Assembly: GCA_963930775.1 (NCBI GenBank)
Contig: OZ005703.1
Location: forward strand, 5,828,001 to 5,892,000
Direction of reading: 5' to 3'
DNA from: Cliona cf. orientalis
Lineage: Eukaryota > Porifera > Demospongiae > Clionaida > Clionaidae
Length of the DNA stretch: 64,000 bases
Below are positions 19,301 to 37,072 of this stretch, piece by piece (the first letter of the stretch is position 1; each line of letters starts with the position of its first letter). The position numbers and the translations under genes were made by a program. The notes beneath the pieces were generated by a model. That model did no database searches. It had not been told where the DNA came from and saw only the letters and a list, made by a program, of their open reading frames with translations.

Positions 19301-22300
19301 TCTGGTTGTTTGGTGGGCAAGACTCGAGAAAAACGACAAAGTAAGACATAATATGACACAAATAGCTAGTTTGCTAGCTGTAGCTACTGTTTTTGTTGAT
19401 TTATGGGCTCCATTTTACAGTCAGGGAGAGGGGGGCTTATACGCGAGACAAAAGTACCTATGCAGGAACTTGAGCTAAAAATGGAGGGGGGGGGGGCTTA
19501 TGCGCGAGGGGGGGCGTAATCGCGGGATTCTACGGTAATATTATTGTGATTGAACGATCAACATGATTGTATGACCAGGTCACTGCAGTGTAAGCAACTG
19601 CTGGACCAAAAGTATAATTGCCATGGTCTGTGTGGGCAATTTGATGATCCACTTATAATATATTATTTGCATGGTTACTATAGACTTAGGTTATGACGTG
19701 TATCCATATGTAACTGTTAATGGAGGACTACCTATAATTAATTTTGCCATAATTATAGTTGATGCAAACACTACAATCACCAATGGATCTCATATCAGTG
19801 TTAGAGAGGGAGACTCAGCTACCATCTCATGCATATCAACTGGTATTCCCACTCCATCCATCTCGTGGGTACTGGATGGTCAGCCAGCGCCATTTCAATC
19901 AATGGAAATCACTATAGAGGGAAGGAACACACTAATTCGTAGTGATCCCAGTGATCCTGCCAGCCCTTTAATTCCTGAGAGTTTAAGTATGATCACTTCA
20001 AACTTATTGGTCGTGAATGCCCAAAATCCTGATCATGATGGAGTCTATGTCTGCACTGGATCAAATGATAAATCTATGGTTAACATCAGCCGTGCCATGA
20101 TCAATATACAAGTTGTCAGTAAGTGGATCTGATACTAAACTATTACAGCATTAATACTCGTGCAGGATATGTGCTATTGGGGCTAGCCGAAGAGAGCCCC
20201 ACACTTATCACTCATGTACATAGAATAAGTTACAGCCTAAACTACACACTACTGAGGTTATCACACATACACGAGGTGGTTGTGGAGGCAGATCTGAGCC
20301 GAAGTGTTATTTGCATAACCACCTGAGTATGTGTGTGATAACCTCAGTATGTATAATTATAGTGTGTATAGTTTGTCTGGCTTGTACTATTATTTAACTA
20401 TTATGTATGTATAAGCTAGTATAACTGCCCTTATTAGTAGTTATAATATAGACTGTATACACCTTGATGGTCCAGGTTAGATAAACACTAGGCAGTGCCT
20501 TTGATGCACCCACACACTGTAGTACAATTATTCTTCGATTTTGGTTCAGAGAGCCATGATACTATTGTTATGCATGGACCGTTGACTATTTTTATAGTTC
20601 CCCCTGAAGTTGAAGTGGTTGCCTCTTCTTCACGAGTCATCCTGGGAGGGTCAACCACACTCACTTGTAATGTCACAAGAACAAATCCAGAAGTTGCTGA
20701 TATACAATGGAGAAATGAAAACACAGGAGAGAGGATTCTTGAGACTTCAGACATATTGCTGTTGGATCTTTCAGTAGTGACTGACTTTGGTACGTACAGC
20801 TGCACAGTGACAAATAGTGCGGGAGAAGTGGGAACGGGAAATCTTACGATTACACAAGGATGTAAGTTCATAATATCAAACTTGGTTCATTACGTCCCTG
20901 ATATAATTATAGTGAAAGTTGAGAAAATTTTTGTCTACTCAATCTTGCTCATAAATTCTGCATTGCAGTTTCACCATTGGTTGCACTCGTTCAGCATCTT
21001 CCTGGGAATCCAGTCATTATTGGCACTACCATTGAACTGATCTGCACCATGGCAGGAAAAGATCCCCCAAGGACTATCACATGGACATACAATGGTGTTA
21101 AAATTGATACTGGATCAGAAATAACTTCATTCAACATCTCCAGGCAAATATCCAGTTCAGACTATGGTGTGTACACCTGCTCAGCATCAAATGAATTTGG
21201 ATCTGATAGTGAAACTATTGAAATTATACAAGCAGGTAAGATTGATTTTTATATCTTGTATGCATAAGGATATTATAATATCCTCTCTGCTGAAATATTA
21301 TAGTCGCTCCAACACTCGTACCTATAACCACTGATGTTGAGGTGGAGGTCGGTATGTCACTCACTCTCAGTGTTAACATAACTGGATTCAACTTAGAAGT
21401 CACAGATATTGTTTGGCTGAATAGCAGTGGCACAGTTGTGTCACAAACTAGTGGAATTTACATGATCATAAACTCCAGCCTGGATGCACCTGTGGGGACA
21501 GCTATGCTGTTTGTTGAATCCGTTACCTCACCAGTGGTGTACGGAGGAATCTATCAGGTCATCGTAACTAATCCTGCTGGATCGGACTCATCAACTTTCC
21601 ACGTGTCAATCATTAGCTATAGTGAGTTCAAGGCAGTGCATAAGTGACTATTCACCAGAAATCACCACCAATGTCATAAATCATAAATACTTTGTATCAT
21701 TGGCTACAGTAATGATAGCTACACTATTGGTGCCCTCTTTGATAATGCATGACATTGTATGTATACAATTTTTCAGTTACTACAGAATCATTTCTTCAAT
21801 TGAGAATATTTCCAATTGATGATTGTTCCAGTTGGACTGTAAGTGAAAGCTTATTGATATAATATAATGTGCTCCGTCATGTAATGATTAATAATTTTAG
21901 GAGAGAAACAATGATCAGAAACAGGGTGATATAAGAACGCATGTTGCCCAAATAATCGCCAGTGCCTGCTCTTGTGGTTTCTCGGCAACCAACATCACCG
22001 AGTCAGTATTCAGCTGTCGAAGTTCAGAAACTCAGGTCGTTTTCAAAGCACGCCTCAGCTACACAAGTCCAGCTGGAAGCTATACAGCTGAGGACCTAGT
22101 CATGCTCTTCTCATCGTGGGTTAGTAGTGGACCATCTCTGACTGTGACTGGTACAGTGCTGAGTGTGGATCCGACTTGCCCAGTAGAACTGGGGTCACTA
22201 ACTGATGAAGACTGCTTGAGGCCAAATCCTCCCATACTATCAGACGCAGTTAATATCACTACGATATGGGCAGGGGCACTTGGTGGTATTCTTGCAATTG

Positions 22301-22776
22301 CTATCATGATTGTGATTATGGCTATTGTCCTAATGTTGATACGATATTCTCGGCGAACAAAGACATCGAATATTTCAAGGTAAGTGTATATAAGGAGAAA
22401 AATAATTGATTATCTTAGCTGCTGTATGTACATTCATGCTTGCAGATCATATGAGCTTCAGCCTGTAGATGAGAAATCTGGAGCAGAAGGCACTTCACCA
22501 CAGTATGAAGTAATACCAGCATTCAGTGAGGCCAACAATCCAACAGTGCAGTCAAACATTGCATATGGAATGATTCAACTACCAAAGGCCAATAACCCAG
22601 CTATAGTGTTGAGTATCCAGCAGCAAGAATATGAATCAAGGAGAGGAGACAAACAAATATCAGCAATGCAAGAATCCATTGCTGCTGCCAATTCACCCCA
22701 AGATTCAGGATGTGTTAATCCTGGCACCCAAGCAGATGGAACAAATGAGGAAGAATCTGCTTATGATGAAATATGA
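13376..22776 (+). CDS. Ig-repeat transmembrane receptor, copy B (complete)
   Basis: Complete 11-exon model, 1033 aa: 13376..13427, 17410..17739, 17918..18244, 18314..18625, 19759..20118, 20598..20861, 20969..21235, 21304..21621, 21777..21838, 21901..22379, 22446..22776. Exon 1 encodes the signal peptide MEWMFKIIILLSPLISVG; a 4-kb intron follows. Seven Ig domains occupy about residues 20-743, one per phase 1-1 exon, with paired Cys and D-x-G-x-Y-x-C (GVYRC, GTYSC, GVYTC). A membrane-proximal cysteine domain (about 744-880) precedes a membrane span (about 884-912) and a 110-residue tail with YELQ, YEVI, YGMI, CVNP and terminal YDEI; the YVNP of copies A and C reads CVNP here. Exon lengths sum to exactly 3102 nt. 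CpG-rich sequence at 13000-13330 upstream may be the promoter. Role: adhesion or recognition receptor, ligand unknown. Confidence 0.85.
13833..14111. mobile_element. Harbinger-like MITE with TAA target duplication
   Basis: Inverted arms GGCCACTCCAAATAAATTTCC at both ends; the left arm has an extra GGCCAT. It is flanked by TAA at 13830-13832 and 14112-14114. It lies in the first intron of the copy B receptor. Confidence 0.8.
14112..16228. other. Intron 1 sequence of copy B, no exon seen
   Basis: Roughly 2 kb of intron. Short open frames in both strands lack splice or domain support. Phrases such as TTCCGAGC(A/G)AAG occur at 13500 and 15095, hinting at dispersed repeats. Confidence 0.5.
16229..16431. 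mobile_element. MITE with CCGTAGATC termini (TA target)
   Basis: Ends CCGTAGATC / GATCTACGG are flanked by TA on both sides (16227-16228, 16432-16433). Tc1/mariner-type duplication. It shares the CCGTAGA terminus with 19148 and 58933. Intronic in copy B. Confidence 0.7.
18654..19137. mobile_element. Mariner-like MITE, CAGTGGAACC termini
   Basis: Inverted ends CAGTGGAACC(T/C)C / GGGGTTCCACTG extend about 35 bp with mismatches, flanked by TA duplications. Intronic between the Ig3 and Ig4 exons of copy B. No transposase frame. Confidence 0.8.
19148..19535. mobile_element. MITE with CCGTAGAATCCCGCG termini
   Basis: Inverted ends CCGTAGAATCCCGCGATTAC are perfect over about 30 bp, followed by poly-C and poly-G, and flanked by TA. 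It lies 10 bp from the preceding MITE in the same intron. Confidence 0.85.
20235..20385. repeat. Imperfect hairpin in the Ig4-Ig5 intron
   Basis: The arm TACTGAGGTTATCACACA is followed about 70 bp later by its near inverse TGTGTGATAACCTCAGTA. It is probably a foldback MITE; no target duplication was identified. Confidence 0.6.
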
Positions 22777-23258: not shown

Positions 23259-24171
23259 TTAAGTAGTAGGTGCCAAATGAATACCAGTCATGCTATAGGC
23301 AACGTTTGTATCAGTATTCGGGTCAATATCCTCATATAATATTGGACCTATTGTCTCCTTTAATTGTTGAAGTTCCAATTGTAGCTGTCTTTTTGAAATA
23401 CAAGTAGCAACTAACAAACCAATCACAACAGTTGCTCCAATGATGAAGCCCATAAGTAAAACACCAAAAGTGATAGCAACTTCAAAAAACCATGGGCTCT
23501 TCACTATTTCCACATTACCAGGGTTACGATCAGAGAAATTTGTTGATACTATTGTGCTGGTAACATTTGGGATACAAGTGTCGTCATTATCAGTAACATT
23601 TTGAGTGACAATGTCATGGCTGCAATTGCAATTGCACTGGGGAATACTTCCAGTCCAGCTTCCATTAAGTAGGCATGTTCTGGTTGAAAGTGAATCCACA
23701 ATTGAGGCAAAAGTATAATGCAGTGGATCCACTCTTTGTTTCACTGTAGCAAGCAATCCCGTTGCTAATACCAAGGGAATGGTAAGGTGGATCACACGAA
23801 ATGTTTGAGGGAAGCGATGTGTTATCACCAAGAAGAAGAGGATCACAAGCTAGCTATAAGAAAATGTCCAAAATGTTATCACTAGCTTGATAGGGTATCA
23901 GTGGCTAATAGTGGCTTACCAAGGTTGATAATTCCAGTGATACCAACTGTATACGTCGCATTACTGGCTGTAGCTGAGAAGCAGTATCGTGGTTCTATCA
24001 CAGGCTCAATTGAAACACTGACCAGTACTGTATCATTAGTTGAATTTGCTTCACTTGATCGTGAAAGACTGTTACAATCATCACCTGGCCCATATCGAAT
24101 ACCACAAAACTTATTGTTAGGTTCTTGTTCGTTCAGAAACATACAAACAAAACTGAAAATGTTTGGATCAA
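23259..24171 (-). pseudogene. Sushi receptor remnant, copy B'
   Basis: Only the last two exons of the minus-strand receptor survive (23920..about 24171 and 23259..23849). Relative to copies A' and C', 14 nt are missing near 23686 inside the CCP domain, which shifts the frame and leads to a stop. The C-terminus is also altered: the usual stop is lost and translation would run to GIHLAPTT. Similarity ends abruptly at about 24171, and protein-tyrosine-phosphatase exons follow. The membrane-span frame is still open. The long frame here that begins MILFFLVITH is not the ancestral reading frame of the ectodomain. Confidence 0.85.
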
Positions 24172-24501: not shown

Positions 24502-25107
24502 CGTTCCTCCCTCAGTCAGGTCACACAGCATGACGATGCATTTGCTCTTGAACTCCCAAATCATTCTCCAGAAATCTCCGACAGTGTTTAGCAGAGGAGC
24601 CTGAGCAGCGATGTAAGCATTACGCTTCTTGTAACCCTGCAAGACAAATGCAGAGATTGGTTGAAATGACATCATGCTACGTAATGAATCAACATAATTG
24701 TAAGTATGGTAGCCATGGTTCTTACATCAATGAAGCTTGCATTGACGTAGTCTGCTCCCGGGGTACCAGTTGGTCGAAGGCGGGCACAATTCGTGTTGAC
24801 TGAAGACAAAAAGAATCAATGAGTGAGTTTTGTGTGTACTTTATGCATGCATTATTATATTATTATAATAATATTATTATAAGCAAGTGTAAAAGCATGC
24901 AAGAGTGTGTGTACGTATGTGTATTTAAAAGACAACAGTACTGCTAATTACATTACTGATTTCAGAACAGCATAACAATGAATGTGAATGTGTGTCATTT
25001 CCCTCACAAGGTAGTCTGTCCTGGTATCTGTTCTTAGTGCTGTTGTAGTGTTGTAGAGCATCAGATTGATCCTTGTCTGTCGGCTGACGACTCACTGAGC
25101 CAAGAAG
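24502..25107 (-). pseudogene. Receptor tyrosine phosphatase, N-terminal half of catalytic domain (fragment)
   Basis: Three joined exons on the minus strand: 25008..25107, 24726..24799, 24502..24636. They read NRYQDRLPF, then DYVNASFID, then GYKKRNAYIAAQAPL, DFWRMIWE and IVMLCDLTEGG: the hallmark N-terminal motifs of the classical PTP fold (substrate pTyr loop, core strands). Splice junctions are clean and in phase. The rest (WPD loop, HCX5R loop) is missing to the left, where copy B' begins. It lies about 400 bp downstream of, and on the same strand as, the large ITAM receptor, which has its own stop codon, so I treat it as a separate broken gene. It could be an alternative 3' end, though phases do not join directly. 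Confidence 0.75.
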
Positions 25108-25510: not shown

Positions 25511-28500
25511 CTAAGTTAAAGGAGTCTCAGCAGCTTTACTAGTGTTGCCATGGATACTGGTGGTTGTCATGGGGACATAGAGTGGGCACTGGATGAACCC
25601 ATAGTCTTCAGTTGATGCCATTGGCTGCAGGTACACTGCCTCCACCTCTGTGGGCTGGGGCTTAGCCAGGGGTGGAATTTTAACATTCTCATAAGTAGCT
25701 GTAGCCTGATTATACTTGTCCAGTATTTCATACTCATGATCAGTGGTTTCAATGGTTTCATAAACCTCTCTGTCTTCGTCAGTGGTGAGAGACAGATCAC
25801 TTAACATCACACTCCCTGACACTTCGTATGGTAAGGGTCTGTTTAAGAGAACAGCATTAAAAATTATTAGAAATTGATCTGTTGAATATATTTACTCTTG
25901 ATTTGGACTGAATTGAGATCTTTGGCTTCTAAGTACCAGGGCAACAATAACAATTATGGCTATGGTTGCTGCAATAATGAGCACCACAGCTATCACTCCA
26001 CCTACAACTCCACCTATGATACCCACTGTGTTGTCAGAGCTGGATGGGGTAGCAATGGACATTCGATTTCCAGGACGCACAGGAGCTGTAAAAATAGAGA
26101 GATTGATGCGTGTTAAACAATGTCATTATGCAACAAAAGAAAACAGGGAGGCAGATAACAATAAGAGTAGCTGTAACTCTTTGATGTTCAGTTACCTGAC
26201 ATTCCAGCTACTGTCGACGTTCTAACAGTGATATCGTATTCAGCTCCTGATTGGAGTCCTGAAATAACAGCTTGATTCTGTGTCCAAGGAACAGTCACGG
26301 TTCCTCCTAATTCACTCTGCCTCTTCCTAGAGTCAATGATGATGGTGTATGTGACAATATAGTTAGCCAATCCCTTCAGCTCCACCAAAGTGAATTTGTT
26401 CCAGCTCACTCCTATGGAGGTAGGGTTAAATCTCACAAATACAACATTCTCTGGTGGAGGGGGCACTGAAATGAAAAAGGAATATTATGTGAACCTTTAT
26501 ACATTGTCTCTGATCAATGAATTGCTTACCTCCTTCCTGGATGAAACAATAGGTTTGATTTTCTTCCCCACATCCAGCCAGATTGATGGCCTTCACTATG
26601 ACACTGTAGGGCACTTCAGCAGCTGAAAAATTAATGTGCAGCAATGATACTATAATATGCATAATCTAATACAGCAATATTATACCGAGTCCAATGACGG
26701 ATGCCTCTCTTCTATCAACAAACTGCTTATCCACAGCAGACTGGATGACCTCCCTGGTGCCTGGCCTGTGCTCTAGTCTGTTCACTATCACTTGATAGCT
26801 GACCACTTCACTGCCCAGCAGGGTAGGCAGATCCCAGGAGAAGGAAAGCTCAGATGGCGAAGAACTCACAGCACAAACCAAGTTCCCAACCTTACCAGGT
26901 ACTACAATTAATGATAAAATTTTATGAATTTTTGTACTACAAGGTGCATAGGAACTCACAGTCAGTATTAACTTGCACTGTATCCGTACCAAATGTATAA
27001 CCGTCAATTCGAGCCTCTGGGATGTTTACGACAGAGCGACAATTGTACAGGCCTCTGTTTGTTGTTGTAATGTCACTGAAAATGAGCTCTCTAGTTTGAG
27101 GATTCATTCGTGGATTACTGGACTCTATAGTGGGCACTTCAGAGCCACCAGGGGCCACCCATACGATGGTGGGTGGAGAGAAAAGATTCTCCACTTGAGT
27201 AGCAGTGCAATTGAGGGTCATGACCTCTCCACATCCATCCAATTGACGACGAGACACAATGGAAATAGTAGGAGGTCGGGAGGGAAGAGCTAGAGATGTT
27301 TGAAAACAGAATGAATCATGAGAATTATTAACATGCAACATTAGCTTACGTTTCACTGCCAAGTTATAAGTTGCAGTATCACTATTGCTGATGATTAGTG
27401 GAAAATTGTCTGTAGGTCTAACAGAGACGGTCAAAGTGTACTCTCCTGAACTATTACTGGTGGCAGGTAGAAATGGTAGGAGAATTCTGTATGGTGGAAC
27501 TGAGGTCTCTTGTGGGGTATCGTCTCCAGACCATGTCCCGGTAACAGTGACATCAGTGTCCACACTTGGATCCAGCTCAACTTCACCAATAACAGTGAAG
27601 TTGGTTCCATTGTAGGAATTTTCTGGAGGAGAGGGAACTCCCACATTGAGAATGGAAACTGGAAAGAGAATGAATCATAATTAATGCTCTAAAGGAAGAT
27701 TCTGAAGCTTACCCCGAACACTGACATTTTGTTTTGCGCTACTATTTAGGGGTTAATACCAGCTTGAGGTATGACAATCCGGGCTCGACAGCTGTACTGA
27801 CCAGCATGGGAAGAGCGGACAGGGTTAAAGATCAACAACCTTCTTGCTGCTGTGTTGGAAGTGTCCATTTGTTGTCCCTCAAGGACTCCAGACCTAGCAC
27901 CAACAAAGTCCCAATTCAACACAGGCACTACCAACACATAGTCTTGAGTGGAAGCAAAGCAGCTGAGGGTATGAGACTGGCCAGCAAGAGGTGGTGGACC
28001 AGCTTCGATGCTCACATCAGGAGGAGGCAGTCCTAGGAGAGAGAAATACCAATAACCTAGCTACGGTGATATTTACTGCTTAGCTACTTGTAACATTGAC
28101 TTCAACTTCAGTCATATTTGCATCACTTGGGTCAACATTTGAAACTTGGGCAGACACTACAATGGCTGAACAGGTGAAGGTTCCAGCATTGCTCGTCGCC
28201 AGAGGGTTGGAAGATATGAAAGAAAGAATAGTCTGGAACTCCATATCCGTAGTCATGGTAACCCCTGATGGCGTTGGTGCCCCAGGTCCAGAGAAGGTTG
28301 GAACAGTAACCATGAATCCAGTGTCCACTCCAGTCCTGTTGGGAGTGATGGTACAGGTGAGAGAGAAAGTGGTCCCTTCATAGAGAGGAGCGCCACGACT
28401 CAGCTTAATACGGACAGATTCAGGAGGTGGCACTATTGGTGCAATATGATAATGCATAAAAATTTGATTATTCTTATTATACCAGGCTTACATTTCACTG

Positions 28501-31500
28501 ACACAGTGAATGTTTGATCAATGGTGTGGTTGTCTACTATCGCTGGGATGGTTAGCAGTGTCTTGCATGAATACCCTCCTGCCTGAGAAGTGTAGAGGCT
28601 GTTAAAAGTGAGTCTGCTAGTGAGAACAGTGTTGGTGGTTGGACCAACGTCATACACAGTAAAGTTAGGATTGCCTTCACTGATAACGGCATCATTCTGA
28701 TCAAGCCACTGCACAGCCAGAGTAGCTGAAGGAGATAAAAACCGATTTCTGCTGACATTGCAGATGAGTGTGTATCCAGAGAGCCCAGCAATTGAGCTGC
28801 CTTCATCAGTGACGGGGACAACAGTTTGAACTGGAAAATCTGATGTTAAATATAAAGGCATTAATACACTACAGTAGAACAAAAACATCACTTTTTATGT
28901 ACCTCCAATAATTATATTTCGTGACACTGCATATGTTGTCCCAGTGACATAGGTATCATTCTCAGGAGTAATTGTAACTACACATGTGTATGTTCCAGTG
29001 TCATTGACTATCAAGGGGTTGAGCCTGACAGTAGTGGTGTATGGAGGCATGTACATTGGGGCGCTCATCACAATGATCCGATTCCCATCATTAGTCAGGC
29101 TGGTCCCGTTCCTATTCCAGGTTCCCAGTACTGTGACTGGGGTGTTCACAGCAGTATCCAGAGTAATGCTACAAGTAAAGGTGAGATCTAACCCATCAAA
29201 GAAGCCCTCGTCCAAAGGAGAGCCAGTGTTGACCACCAGATCACGGCGTGGAGGAACTGAAAGAACAAACTATGAAACTTATTATTGTGCAGGAGATCCG
29301 TACATACTTTGCACTACAAGGATTGTTGTATTTGTCCCTCGAACAGTAGTAGTCCTTGGAACAGAGAGCGTGGCAATACAGGTGTAGACACCTCCGTGAG
29401 CAGTAAGCAGAGAGGAGAAGGAGAGGGAAAGAGGACCAGAGGTGCCTTCACCAGACACTTCAACTCCAGGTTGACCAACTCCTGGTCCCTCCCATCGTAA
29501 AGAGGGGGCAGATGAGAGACCAGGGATGACTATTGCTGAGCAGGTCAGGTTGTGAGGTAGTCCAGCAGTGGATGAACCAGAGGACACAATCGATACACTC
29601 AGAGCAGGAAGAACTGAAAGAGAAGAGAAAATTCAATAAGCTAGAGTACTTATTGTGGTAACTTACTCTCACCTGGAATGTTAACAGTTTGTTGTCCTAT
29701 CTCACTCATAGTGATAAAGCCAGGTCCCAGTGGTGGTCTAGCCACAGCTCGGCAGGTGAAGGTAGTATCTTCAGTGCTGAGTGGAGTCAAGGTGAGCTGG
29801 CTAGTGAAAATTGGTCTGGAACCCTCAAGAGCAGAGAGAGTGTCTCTACCACCACTCTGCAGTTGAGCATTTCCTCTGAGCCATGTGACATCTGTATCCT
29901 CTAATCTAATGTCACTATCAGTAGCGGTATTAAGGTAGATGGTGCAAGTGAGAGTGAGAGAGACTATCCCAGCATAGTGAGGACCAGAGGGAACAGTGAT
30001 GTTGATAGCAGGAGTAGAGACTGTAAAGGAAAGAGTTATTATGAGTTAGCAATAAATAGGACAGACTACTTACTTTGGACAGTGATTCTCACTTGCATAT
30101 CAGTGGTCTGTGGTGTTTCAAGAGCTGCTGAGGCTATAGATCCACCACAGGTATATACATCACTATGAGAGGTCCTCAGTGGGTCAAATATCAAAGTAGA
30201 CAGTGCAAATAGAGCACCAGTTAAATTAGAGAGAGTGATACCACTTCCATTGGTTGTATTTATTGCTCTTCCTCCAACAGTCCAAGCAACACTTGGTGGA
30301 TTGACAAAGCCACTAATGGCTGATACATTACAGGCCAGTGAGTACATCTCCCCAGCTGTGGCAATGCCTGAACGCTCAATACTGACTTGGATAGCATTGG
30401 AAGGAACTAAGGAAAAAATTGAGGTAAAACTAAAATCTGAGTGCATAAAGAGCTTACCGTTTACTTGTACAGTGAAGTTTTGTGAGACTGTCACTGAATC
30501 TCTAGTGACTCTGCACACATAGACCTGATTATGGATACTGTCATTGGCTACAGAGAACATCTGATTGAGCTCTTGGATACTGGTAGAGGCAATACTAGCA
30601 ACCACTTCTCCATTCCTGAGCCACTCGATCCTAGTAGCTGGAGTGACACTCCTACAAGCGGCAATGGCTGGCTGACCAACATAAAACTGATCATGAGCAA
30701 TGGATACACCTAGTAGTACATGTACACATGAAGCATGCACTTCACAGATAGTAGTAGCATATATATACACATGTACCATTCAGCTCCACAGTCTCTTCAA
30801 ATGAACCTCTGACATTACTGATTTCACAGGTAAAACTACCCAGAAAGTTTGCAACATCATCATTAAATAGAATGTTCTCATAAGTTGAATTCTCAGGGAA
30901 TATCAGCCTCTGGCTCCGCTCGTAGACAGAGTCATCCACCAGAATACCATTCTTCTTCCAAGTAACAGTAGTAGGAGGGCCTCCAGTGGAGGTACAAGTT
31001 AGGGTAGTGTTAGGATCATACAATAAAGAAGTAATCACAGGAGAACCTGCAGTGAGTGATTGTACTTCACATTTAGATATAATATTTGCATATAAAATTA
31101 TCGTGGTCTAGCATGCACTCCTTGCATCCCTTATGAACTGAAAGTTTGGGAGAGAAAATGCAAATTTTGGACTGTTCAGCATTAGCACTGTCAAAAGTAT
31201 ATATATGTACATGAATGTTAATTAATTCAACTGCAGCTTACCAGCTCCCTGAGAGTATACTCCGACATAGATGTTCTGGCTGGTTCCACTAGTATCAGGT
31301 ATCTCACAGCGATACACTCCACTTGGAGATGTACCTCCACTGCGATATAAAGCCACAGCACTGGAAACTTGCTCTCTGCTAAACACAGTACCAGCAGAAG
31401 GCACTGGTGTGCCATCAGGTAAGTACCACTCCCTGGTCACACTGGCTGCATTAGGTGTCTCACTATCGCCACAACACTCCAAGCTGGGAGTCAGGCAGAA

Positions 31501-34500
31501 CAGAGCTGACATGAAGAAACTACTGCCAATATCAGTCACAGTCACAACACTGTTGTTACCATAGAGCTGACCATCCAGGAGAAAACCAAGGTCTGGGAGC
31601 AGTTTATAGAAGTCACAGCATAACCAATAATACCTTAACAGCTCACCTTGTGGTTCTGAGGTATTAACAGTCAAATTGACAGAAAAAACTTGATCGAAAG
31701 TGAGATGATTAAGGCCTTCAATCTTAAAGATATAGCTGGTTCGTGGTGGCAGTCCAATAGCTGTGTATTCTCTGCTACTCTCACTAAGAGAAGCAACACG
31801 TCCAGCACTCGGATCAGACAAAGGATAGTAGATTACGTGATAAAAGAAATAACTGTCAAATGGCTGATTAAGATCCTGACACGGAATGGGGTCCCACTGG
31901 ATGGTGACACTGGTGACACTAACAGAACTGGCTGTTGGAGGTGGAGGCGGCCCAGAAGCTGTGATATCATCATTATATTATTATCATCATAGTTCAACAC
32001 CCAGTACATAAAACTCACCAGCTATCATAGTGGTAGCTGTAGCACTGTTGGATAGTTCACTGGTGTCAACTCTATTCATAGCTCTAAGTGTGATAGAGGA
32101 ATACATACTGTCCTCCTCCACTGGAGTGTCAGAACTGTTCTCAATGGTGTATTCTCTCAGTGAACCATCAGTTATTATCGCTTGGACTGGTGGAAAGATG
32201 CTTTCATTGCCACTGCACTGGTTAACTGTGAATTGATAAGTGAGAATATAACTGTCGACCGATCCTTCTGGCTGCTCCCAGGTCAAACGAATGGAGATGG
32301 TCATACCAATTGCCATCAGGTTGGTGGGGGCTGGGAGGGGAGCTGTAAAAGAAGACAATACCTGAAGTACAGAGAAAGGAATAAAGAGATGGAAATATAC
32401 CAACAGTGACATTCGCTGAACCAGACATTGTTCCACCAGAAGAGATGGTAGCTTGGCAGGTATAGCTACCACTTCTAGCTGCATCAATTGTGACAGTGCT
32501 GGTGTATGTTGCAATGTCTATCATCACAGCAGGTACTATTCTATGTGGTAGAAATATTATCCTCTCAGGTCCACTCCATTCGGTACTAACATTCACTGGA
32601 ACATCTATTGCTGGACTTAACTGCACAGTGCAGGACAGGTTGGAGGATGATCCAGCAATTACTCTCATGGGATAAGTGACCCTCACATTCACAGGGGCTT
32701 CCACTAAAGAATAATTTTGAATCAATAACATACAAACTAGCTATACGAGTGTAACTGTGAGTTACACAGCAATATGTTAAGGGATGCAAAAAAGGTAAAG
32801 ACTCTATTATTATGATACGGTGTACAAGTACTTACAATTGATGTTCACAGTAACACTTCCCTCCAGCACCTCCCCCTCTACGGTGGCTCGACATGTATAC
32901 ACTCCAGCATCAGACACCCTCAGTGGAGAGAACTGAAGTTGACTGGTGTTAGCAAGCTGAGTACCATTGCTATCAAACCATTGATAAGTTGCTGGATTAG
33001 AAGTGCCACTGACAGAGCAGTCCAATGAGTAGGTCTGACCAGCAGTAGGAATGCCAGCAGCAGAAGGAGTGATCACAACATTCACTGTGGATAAGAGCAG
33101 GTAGAACTAGAGCTCTCTCGAGCACAAAGTGATCCTCAGCGCGTTGCATGGCATTAGCTACTTGCTTCAACAGTGGCATGCAGAAAAGTGGGTAGCTCAG
33201 AATTATAAGGGCTGGGACTGGGGCGAGACAGAGATGAGGCTAATAATAATAATATTATACTTGCACAGCAGTATTATTCAAGGTTCAACCGCTCATAGCA
33301 GCAACAACGTTAACCCTGGTGTGTTGTATCGAACTCCACACTGTGGTGGCGACGTAAATTCAACCTCCCTCACTGTAGCCTAACCTCCAATTCTTGGGGA
33401 CTTAGCTAGCTACATCTCAACTTGAAGGACTATGATGCAAAGCCTTGCCACAAGACTGAAGTACACTGAGTAATTACCCAATATTATTGCAACTCACTTG
33501 GGTTCAAGCACTGTAATGCCATGCATGCATACAAGCCAGAGAGTCGAAGGGTACCACAAGGATACAGGCAGCTAAGCGATAGAGTTGAAAAGAAGCCACT
33601 GTCATCCCACGATCGTCAAAAGCTCACCAGTGGATTGAGCGGTGGGACTGATGCAACCGCGCATGCGCTGGGGGTTATAGATGTATATACCGTATATAGC
33701 ACACAACCTATTTAGCTATACGTTAAGTCATGGCTATTGCTAGCTTGGGCAAAGTCAAGAAGCATAGAATCGGCAAATGACGCCAAAACTGGCTAACAAA
33801 GTATTTTTGGAGAAATCCACACAAATCATGCATTTGGAACGCCATAAGGAACCTTACAAAACTTCAAATTGGACTCGAAAACGAGGTATGTAGCAGCTAG
33901 CATGGTGCTTCAGTTGTTGATGCCTCAGTAGAGGTCTCCGTTGTTTGTACCTCAGTTGAAGACATTTCAGTTGTTTCAGTTGTTGTAGGTACAATGGTAG
34001 TGGTTGCTATAGATGTAGCTGGCGACTTAGTGGTAGTCTATGATGGCGACTCAGTGGTAGCCTCGGTGATTTGGCGGTAGTTGGTATTTCAACTGAAGTT
34101 ACAGTCTCTTGTAATCAATACTAAAAGTCCTAGAAAGGGAAGGACCAGGGGCACTCTCTCGGCGACTCCTATTCGCAGTGCAGAGAAGTTTTCCCAGGTA
34201 TGTACATGGATGCTATATATCAGTGCATTGACTGCTCCATGTCTGTTTGTTTGAGTATCACATGCAGCTCTAACGGCAACTTACTGACGGAACAGAGCTA
34301 AGCAGAGATCCACCTGACCGGACTAGATCTATACTCTAATGGACAGAACTCACCCCTTTTTTGTTACCAGGGATGTTGTAATTCGTTTTTCTTTCCGGGC
34401 TTTTCCTCTCTCACAGTTTTTCCTTAATCAAAGGTTTTTTAGGTGTGAGAGGTTTTTTCACATGGGTATAGTTGGCCGCATACCCTAAAACTGTGTACAG

Positions 34501-37072
34501 TCTGGTGCACAATTATGTTTTCATTGGCCCATCCCTGCTTATTCCAGCTACTAGTAGTCATTTTTATGTAGCTGTTTGTATGTGATAGTGTGTTGATGTG
34601 GTTGTTGCATTGTTGTATTGTTGTGTGGCGGACTTTTTCTGCACTCTCTGTCGCCCGATACCCAATTATAATTGATTATGAACATGTTGGTGAGTGGTTG
34701 CATGGGGTGCCATGCATGTAGTGGGATTAGATGAGAGACTCTGTATTCAATTAACTGGTGGCAAGTGTGAGATTTTGATCAAGAAAAGCAGCATAATTGA
34801 GTTTGTGTGTGTGTGTGGGTCGGGGGGGGGGGGGGAGGGGAGAGGGGGGGAGTGGAATTGATAAGTTACTGTATAGTGAAATTTTTGAGGGAGAAACCTT
34901 TTAGCAAGGGAGCATTTCACAGAGAAAATTTTCATGGAATGTTAAACTAATTGCATAGATAGGTAAGGAATGCCTAAAATTTCGTGGAGGAACTTTCACG
35001 GGTGGCTATAAAATTGCAAAATTTGTGAAAGTTTTCTCCCTCGAAAGTTTCCTACTATATAATAGATAATGCAAAAATTAATGAGAAACCTTAATTGTGT
35101 CACCTGCTAAGCCAGGAGAGGAGTCTTACGATAAGTAATTAGTCACAGAAATGAGGACCATTTAAACCCAAATCCATCAAGAATGGTACAGCATTTGTGG
35201 TGGCCATGGATTCTATTATTATTATAAACGGTTCCATTTCAACCAGCAACAATATGGGCTAGCTGAAATGCTGTGCAAGTCATATAGAAAGGTTCCAAAA
35301 GGGAGAAAGGAGGAGGTATGTCTGGCAAGTAAAATTGTTGAGAAGTATGATACTGACTCTAATAATATTTATGGCTTATGCCTTCTCAACCTACGGCAGC
35401 TTGCATTCTCTTCATATTAGAAACTAACCTTCAGTATTCCATCATGCAACAACATTTAAATTTACTGATACATACCTCCTACAATAAGCCCAAATGATCT
35501 AGTCACCTCTGTGCTGCCCAGTGTAGCTCTACATGTGTATGTCCCAGCATGAGAGACTGACAGTGGGTCAAATATCAGTGTGCTCACGCTACCATTGGTC
35601 ATCACTCCAGATGTGATCATGTTGTTCATAGGACCCATCAGCCAGGTGATGGTTGGCTGATCATTTGACCCAGTCACAATAGCAGTACACTTCAGACTGT
35701 AGCTCTCCCCAGCAGTGGCAGTACCAGAAGAAGTGATGGAGACATCAGCAGCGTTATCACCAGATTGAGTAATGGTGACAAGTATGTCAACTGTAGGTTG
35801 TAAATTGATATATTATACAAATTGATGAATTATGCAATTATATTTACCAATGTTTATAAACAGGTCAGCAGATGGCCCATTGGCTTGAGGAATATTACAT
35901 CGAAACTGTCCAGTAATAGTACCAGGAGATCTGCGGTTCAGGAGGATATGCTGAAACCCCCTGCTCCTGTAGTAGCCATTTGTAGTAGTATCCTGAAGAA
36001 GTACTATGTCATCATTAGGCATATAAAACTCTCCACCACGCATTTCACCCATAGTATTAGTACAACAAGTGGTGCTGTCAGTAGTACACTGAAGGGCATC
36101 ATCTCCCTCTCCAATATCAGTCCTCAGTAGTGTGGAGCCGTCAGGGTAGGGTACTCCATTGAGGTAGAAGCCAAGAGTTCCAGCTGAGATGGATAAGACG
36201 ATACCACTATTCAACATTATTTTACAGACACTAAGATCAGTGGCATACCCAGGGGGTGCTTGGGGTGCTGGAGCACCCCCATCAGCTCTGGCACAACAGC
36301 CAGTTCCGAGTAGCTCAGTGACAAAAAATTAATATTGTTACTGATAATCGATGACTGGAAGCTACTACCACCAATAAACTTACTGGCCTCTAATATTCGC
36401 TCCCAAAACAGCAGTTTCTCGTCGCTATTTGGCCTAAAACAGTCTTCTTTGTCAGCCAGCTACCCTCAAGAACATGTTTAATTAGGGATGTGGTCAACAT
36501 TTTGGGGGCATGGCTAAAAATTTTGCACACGCGCTTTGTGCATGAATGTCTTAGCACCCCTTCCCTCAAATCCTGGGAACACCACTGCATCACTGTAAAA
36601 ATTGAAGGATTACTTTAACCCAGTTGGGTTACCCCAGTTGCATTAATTTTAACTGACCACCAAGCATTTGAAGCAGCCATGGAAACCACTTAGCCTCTGA
36701 TGATCAATGGCGCCAGATCCAATTACAGACTGCACTTGCAAATGCATTCCAGGATCACCATGCACCTTATGTAGCTATGCAGTCTGGGTAACCCAAACTG
36801 GGTTAAAATAACCTTTCAATTTTTACAGTGTCATGAAGATTAATATATCTCTATAATAATATCATATATGTAGGAACTTTGATAGGATTCAATCATGTAG
36901 CTATGTATGTAGCTATGTATATAAAATGTATCGAGACTCTCATTTAACACTATGCACGATTACTGACAACTTATATGCACATTGAGATTATCTCACCTTG
37001 AGCATTGGTCATGTTGACAGTGACAGTCACCAATATTGCCACCATACACACAATTTGCAGTACCTTCCCCAT
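25511..37072 (-). CDS. Large Ig/FN3 transmembrane receptor with cytoplasmic ITAM
   Basis: 24-exon receptor, about 2290 aa. Exons: 36997..37072, 35848..36183, 35476..35790, 32836..33084, 32401..32703, 32019..32342, 31647..31958, 31242..31592, 30777..31046, 30458..30709, 30074..30406, 29673..30020, 29308..29613, 28903..29256, 28492..28839, 28088..28432, 27713..28032, 27350..27658, 26960..27289, 26686..26901, 26530..26622, 26196..26465, 25896..26085, 25511..25838. Order: signal peptide (MGKVLQIVCMVAILVTVTV), cysteine domain, three Ig, two FN3, second cysteine domain, eleven Ig or Ig-like, FN3 (two exons), FN3, membrane span (about 2141-2170), tail. Nearly all exons are phase 1-1. The tail has VYETIETTDHEYEIL (ITAM spacing), YENV, YLQP and YVPM. 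Exon 27713..28032 lacks one base (frame break near 27747). A minus-strand TATA-like site lies near 37130. Ligand unknown. Confidence 0.85.
33898..34130 (-). pseudogene. Decayed Thr/Ser-rich (mucin-like) coding relic
   Basis: The minus strand reads TTTIVPTTTETTEMSSTEV followed by more Thr/Ser/Glu and a stop near 33898, with upstream TESPS and TAKSP blocks broken by a TAG and a frame change. It lies in the 2.4-kb intron between the first two Ig exons of the large receptor and on its strand. It may be an old stalk exon or a fragment of another gene. Low-complexity coding sequence only; no domain. Confidence 0.35.
34801..34852. repeat. GT and poly-G simple repeats
   Basis: A short (GT)n run is followed by G-rich tracts, including 13 consecutive G. 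Intronic in the large receptor. Confidence 0.8.
34869..35060. mobile_element. MITE with CTGTATAGTGAAA termini
   Basis: Inverted ends of about 28 bp with mismatches (shared GAGGGAGAAA), TA at the left border. Similar in style to 40001..40202. It sits in the intron between the second and third ectodomain-module exons of the large receptor. Confidence 0.6.
36239..36586. mobile_element. MITE with AGTGGCATACCCAGG termini
   Basis: Left end AGTGGCATACCCAGGGGGTGC, right end with GCACCCCTT...CCTGGGAACACCACT in inverse orientation. Intronic, before the first ectodomain exon of the large receptor. The target duplication is not clear. Confidence 0.55.
36591..36830. mobile_element. MITE with CACTGTAAAAATTGAA termini
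   Basis: Inverted termini of about 45 bp begin CACTGTAAAAATTGAA and share TTTAACCCAGTT. The interior is 150 bp without coding potential. It is adjacent to the previous element in intron 1 of the large receptor. Confidence 0.75.

Follow-up and report, generated by a model that had tools for sequence, protein, structure and literature searches.

The window analysed here is the whole stretch of 64,000 nucleotides taken from contig OZ005703.1 of Cliona cf. orientalis. Ig-like and FN3-like exons of a large receptor gene span about 36.3 kb to 26.2 kb on its minus strand, on which all features of this gene lie. Nearest to the membrane are an FN3 exon (26196..26465; 86-98% identity in 13 of 20 paralog loci), the first of two exons of a further FN3 domain (26687..26902) and an Ig domain (26961..27293) that is 80-91% identical in 11 paralog loci. 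Beyond a block of seven Ig-like exons (27351..30018) and three more (30072..31071) follow a conserved Ig-like exon (31240..31593; identity 69-92% to 13 paralogs but 30% to L028) and two FN3-like exons (31648..32343), one fn3 stretch of which passes Pfam by itself. Additional Ig-like exons upstream (32500..36328) are probably part of the same receptor gene. The host had been taken for a non-bilaterian animal, a sponge, and its genome bears this out: two exons read QGxCGASYAFS and are silicatein-like, with serine in place of the cathepsin active-site cysteine, a signature which we take to be a mark of demosponges.

Similarity to individual paralogs changes along the ectodomain. The block of seven Ig-like exons is 80-94% identical to L012, 42-76% to L021 and about 24-60% to other paralogs; in the three exons next to it identity to L012 is only 52-66%. 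The share of differing synonymous sites between the window and L012 was 0.13 in the middle Ig block and 0.49 in the next one, and between the window and L009 it rose from 0.16 close to the membrane to 0.60 in the middle, for blocks that were picked after a first comparison and with some best matches in divergent blocks being other Ig domains of the paralog. Judged from these alignments, the ectodomains look like mosaics, the likely cause being exchange of Ig blocks within the family.

The transmembrane exon (25896..26085) is predicted to be joined in frame to the cytoplasmic tail exon (25511..25838; 108 amino acids plus stop) across a 57-base GT..AG intron, from 26085..25896 to 25838..25511. 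An AG acceptor was present at the same site in 18 of 18 tails with a readable junction (21 tails in all), and in paralog L025 transmembrane segment and tail form a single uninterrupted reading frame with no intron between them. On this gene model the tyrosine motif described below is placed in the cytoplasm behind the transmembrane segment. L025 (3655..995, minus strand) carries a mucin-like, T/P-rich ectodomain on the transmembrane and tail module common to the Ig/FN3 family.

The tail peptide encoded by the minus strand is VYETIETTDHEYEIL in the window sequence. It contains YETI-x6-YEIL (25721..25762), an ITAM-like core whose Y1 and Y2 are tail-exon residues Y26 and Y36, and satisfies the ITAM consensus YxxI/L-x6-8-YxxI/L. 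The YxxI, six residues and YxxL that the first-pass annotation had reported in the receptor tail are thus present in the cytoplasmic exon, at 25762..25721; the interval given for them, 25740..25800, is shifted by about 20 bases and leaves the second half of the motif outside. An ITIM is defined by I, V, L or S at position -2 before the tyrosine, and neither core tyrosine has such a residue, the -2 position being E for YETI and H for YEIL. Y1 is preceded by V at -1 and followed by I at +3. These flanks match the substrate preference of Lck and c-Src, which according to an excerpt of PMC5889215 favour I, L or V at -1 and a bulky hydrophobic residue at +3. The window tail is 9 residues shorter than that of several close paralogs: a TAG (25513..25511, minus strand) replaces their Gln codon, past which they continue for about nine residues (QPTAAQDDQ). 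As a chain, the tail is expected to be disordered.

Additional tyrosines lie downstream of the core on the same strand. YENV (25682..25693) marks a third site, which takes the form Y[DE]DV in 10 of 20 aligned tails; a third YxxV/I site is often found 6-9 residues past the core and often supplies a pair with a 6-8 residue gap. YENV had been annotated as Grb2-like and YVPM (25568..25579) as PI3K-like, together with YLQP (25622..25633). All three occur in the window tail, but they are not conserved as such in the family: among the 20 aligned tails, Asn is found at +2 of the YENV site in only 2, the Tyr of YLQP is restricted to the window copy, and +3 of YVPM is Met in 4 and Val in 13. A second conserved box near the C terminus, DYGFIQCPLYVP (25571..25606; tyrosines Y79 and Y87), has the common family form DYEFTQCPAYVP. 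In a 10-row alignment several residues of this box (DYEFTQCPAYV) were invariant. Its dN/dS of 0.57 across 17 aligned tails is explained by the small number of synonymous changes seen.

The genome (216.8 Mb, 149 contigs) was searched with the window tail, which yielded 28 rows including the window; the list of paralogs obtained in this way is a lower bound. We examined the window, 20 paralog loci and four weak loci. Three of the latter (L040-L042) are homologous, giving 24 homologs located on several contigs. The weak row C3:9871745 was left out of this set, and the row at C11:5141534 (L043) proved not to be homologous on reading. L027, which has a broken frame, was left out of the alignments. 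A tail alignment search found no relatives in genome_contigs or viral_contigs, which hold prokaryotes and viruses only and make this a weak test.

Both YxxI/V and YxxL are kept in 16 of the 24 homologs (window, L009-L018, L020-L024). The gap between Y1 and Y2 in these intact pairs is five residues in 9, six in 6 and seven in 1, and hence spacing is not constant across the family, 9 of 16 pairs falling outside the classical 6-8. At least four changes of the gap were counted on a 16-row tree of three membrane-proximal exons, only 3 of whose 13 inner branches are firm. When the third site is counted and V is accepted beside I and L, 16 of 24 homologs (window, L009-L012, L015-L024, L042) have a pair spaced by 6-8 residues; when I and L alone are allowed, the number is 9 of 24. 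No 6-8 pair is present in L013 and L014, whose gaps are 5 and 9. Y1 is absent or lacks I/L at +3 in L019, L021 (V), L025 (V), L026, L028 and L040-L042, and L025 additionally lacks Leu at +3 of Y2. The YxxL of Y2 is retained despite a missing or altered Y1 in L019, L028 and L040-L042. The deep homologs read YELP-x7-YERL (L040, L041) and YEVL-x6-YEDV (L042). The claim of exactly the ITAM spacing therefore holds for the window copy, with its six residues, but not for the family.

Selection on the tail was evaluated in 17 aligned tails, L025, L026 and L028 being left out besides L027; for the count of column conservation L022 and L024 were also left out. dN/dS was 0.14 for the 14-codon core, 0.12 for a 19-codon box and 0.45 for the tail minus its two boxes. 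A pN as low as that of the core was reached by 52 of 5000 random 14-column sets, and the core ranked 9th of 95 sliding windows by pN. The 14-codon windows with the lowest pN begin at residues 33-34, around Y2 and the subsequent LDKY. Of the 20 aligned tails, 19 have Tyr at Y2 and 17 at Y1. Synonymous variants occur at the Y2 codon (TAT in 15, TAC in 4), and the codon of L39 likewise changes while the residue stays constant. All 17 tails with a Y1 use TAT for it, so that no synonymous change argues for selection at this position. For the window copy, whole-tail dN/dS was 0.76 against L012 and 1.09 against L009, to which its core is identical. Among the paralogs of this genome, the motif stretch is under purifying selection while the remaining tail drifts more freely.

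The bare motif is not beyond chance expectation. The pattern Y..[IL].{6,8}Y..[IL] matched 5 times in the window's 662 open frames that are 40 amino acids or longer, whereas 200 shuffles gave 5.5 matches on average, and the same pattern arose in 2.1% of shuffles of the window tail. Since window and shuffled matches are equal in number, rarity of the pattern, weak evidence by itself, was dropped as an argument; it is conservation in the paralogs, not the motif itself, that carries the evidence.

Between two receptor genes, 0.45-1.0 kb below the tail stop, lies a fragment of a PTP domain (25059..24505, minus strand) that covers 79 of the 234 positions of the Pfam Y_phosphatase profile. Neither WPD nor HC[SA]xG was found in the minus-strand frames from 20.0 to 26.5 kb. 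The fragment was not found in the 20 paralog loci, 9 of which (about 2 kb below the tail) provide a proper test, the other 11 holding about 1 kb. A receptor tyrosine phosphatase was considered and rejected because the tail has its own stop, the PTP piece is partial and catalytic motifs are missing nearby. The fragment is probably a relic, and an alternative transcript may join it to the receptor gene. Two neighbouring receptor-like genes (21901..22776, plus strand; 23259..23849, minus strand) have transmembrane segments and tyrosine-rich tails (YELQ, YEVI, YGMI, YDEI; YEDI, YSMT). Neither gene is matched by the ITAM pattern, and no Pfam match was obtained in the two pieces scanned.

Possible partners were sought in the same genome by SH2 and kinase scans and with approximate queries for parts of human SYK. 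L030 encodes two SH2 regions, ankyrin repeats and a kinase in the order SH2-ankyrin-SH2-kinase, a layout by which it is assigned to the Shark type, a tandem-SH2 kinase; taken by itself, its kinase domain has similar scores with ABL, ACK, ZAP-70 and SYK and does not single out SYK. For the kinase domain of L031, the best named families among solved structures were SYK (277 bits) and ZAP-70 (266 bits), followed by JAK-type chains (about 220 as the sum of two stretches), with ACK next at 213. One SH2 half was found beside this Syk-type kinase domain; a second SH2 was not found in the part of the locus read. An EGFR-named chain headed the match lists of both kinases and was disregarded because two different queries were both top-matched by it, in two stretches. 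Reading frames identify L029 as an SH2-SH2-PTP protein of SHP-2 type and L032 as Abl type, and the SH2 candidates on C9 and C8 were rejected as tandem-SH2 kinases, being read as Abl-like and SHP-2-like. The tandem-SH2 partners anticipated by the first-pass annotation accordingly have candidates in the genome, the Shark-type gene and the Syk-type kinase domain. Syk-family kinases of sponges are already published, as excerpts of PMC9486129 and PMC9601881 state. Other tyrosine kinase genes include a 2925-residue open frame that encodes an SH2 and, in tandem, ten tyrosine kinase domains (C17:2316556-2325288, minus strand), a 1326-residue frame with three such domains (C2:7894793-7897642) and a one-strand array of SH2-kinase pairs on C7 (about 1.89-2.14 Mb), with many single frames of about 380-430 residues.

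Given the conservation of the core (dN/dS 0.14 versus 0.45) and the 16 of 24 homologs with both motifs, we consider it on balance somewhat probable that this large family of sponge Ig/FN3 receptors has in its tail an ITAM-like array of phosphotyrosines on which tandem-SH2 kinases dock. The constraint peak at Y2 and the lack of synonymous change at Y1 take slightly from the weight of this paired arrangement and add to that of tyrosines working singly and of a chance motif. Independent single-SH2 docking sites, hemITAM-like or for adaptors and with no paired ITAM, would suit a gap that varies between five, six and seven with at least four changes, the better conservation of Y2 than of Y1 and a Y2 YxxL that outlasts Y1 (L019, L028, L040-L042), but with both sites in 16 of 24 homologs, and some 6-8-gap YxxI/L/V pair in 16 of 24, partly via the third site, we regard such sites as rather unlikely. 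A motif arisen by chance in a tyrosine-rich tail with no signalling role is very unlikely: the low core dN/dS in 17 rows and the synonymous changes at the codons of Y2 and L39, whose residues are constant, speak against it, even though pattern matches in the window (5) do not exceed the shuffled mean (5.5) and the window copy has a truncated tail that changes fast over its whole length.

YxxPhi is also the pattern of AP-2 type endocytosis signals, and YETI, YEIL, Y[DE]DV and YVPM all match it; the loose spacing would likewise suit single motifs. That these serve receptor turnover, with phosphorylation secondary, nevertheless seems improbable to us, given that the V and I flanking Y1 at -1 and +3 suit Src-family substrates (excerpt of PMC5889215). 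Moreover, several motifs in one conserved box would exceed the needs of an endocytic signal. The SH2-SH2-PTP protein read from the genome raises the idea of an inhibitory or SHP-2 binding tail, and proteins of SHP-2 type can bind two closely spaced phosphotyrosines, but I/V/L/S at -2 is missing at both core tyrosines and we give this idea little credence.

If the tail acts as an ITAM-like array, receptor clustering would lead an SH2-bearing Src-type kinase to phosphorylate Y1 and then the neighbouring tyrosines. A tandem-SH2 kinase, of Shark type or from the Syk-type gene, would dock on two phosphotyrosines about ten residues apart, bridging pairs nine to eleven residues apart, and once docked would start an activating signal that a SHP-2-type phosphatase might oppose. 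Recognition of self, non-self or microbes would fall to the ectodomain. Tentatively, it is possible that a multigene family of ITAM-type receptors serves immunity or allorecognition in sponges, combining ectodomains of exchangeable Ig blocks with a conserved tail of three tyrosines that Shark or Syk would read. If true, the circuit of Src-family kinase, ITAM and tandem-SH2 kinase would date to the base of animals; the results suggest, short of proof, that paired-tyrosine signalling logic is very old. The receptors for self/non-self recognition in sponges are poorly known, and a family with mosaic ectodomains, a constrained ITAM-like tail and Shark- and Syk-type kinases in the genome is a concrete, testable candidate.

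Among known systems, vertebrate CD3, Ig-alpha/beta and Fc receptors act with Syk/ZAP-70, and their YxxI/L-x6-YxxL consensus is matched by the window copy, whereas the gap is not fixed in the sponge family. In vertebrates the ITAM is usually carried by a short adaptor chain. A Drosophila circuit consists of Src42A, the Draper ITAM and, downstream of the latter, Shark (excerpt of PMC4503800). As in the sponge, the ITAM of Draper-I is in the receptor's own tail, and a Shark-type kinase is encoded in the sponge genome too; Draper, however, is a single receptor with an ectodomain of the CED-1/MEGF10 kind and not a multigene Ig/FN3 family. Oyster CgIgIT2 is a single invertebrate protein with Ig domains, a transmembrane segment and an ITAM of classic form, but the oyster is a bilaterian and the portion of PMC11999971 available describes five Ig domains and does not mention FN3. 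The IgSF receptors of the Botryllus fuhc locus combine allorecognition with tyrosine signalling motifs, yet these are ITIM and hemITAM, in a chordate (excerpt of PMC12065747).

Searched by title and start of abstract, the open-access literature gave no ITAM or hemITAM receptor in sponges among the matches listed. A sponge receptor family whose ITAM-like tails differ in spacing would, as far as the excerpted sources go, be a new form of a known system. The suggestion that ITAM-type logic exists in a non-bilaterian agrees with a motif stretch that is conserved and the most constrained part of the tail, but it is not new in itself: Hydractinia Alr is likewise a non-bilaterian IgSF family, of 41 genes (PMC11999971, in part), and the allorecognition genes of Hydractinia are reported in a 2025 review to carry both ITAM and ITIM (PMC12065747, in part). 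The sponge receptors differ in their very long Ig/FN3 ectodomain and in having copies on several contigs. From cnidarians, insects, molluscs and chordates, as covered in these partial sources, the ITAM circuit would be extended to the sponge lineage.
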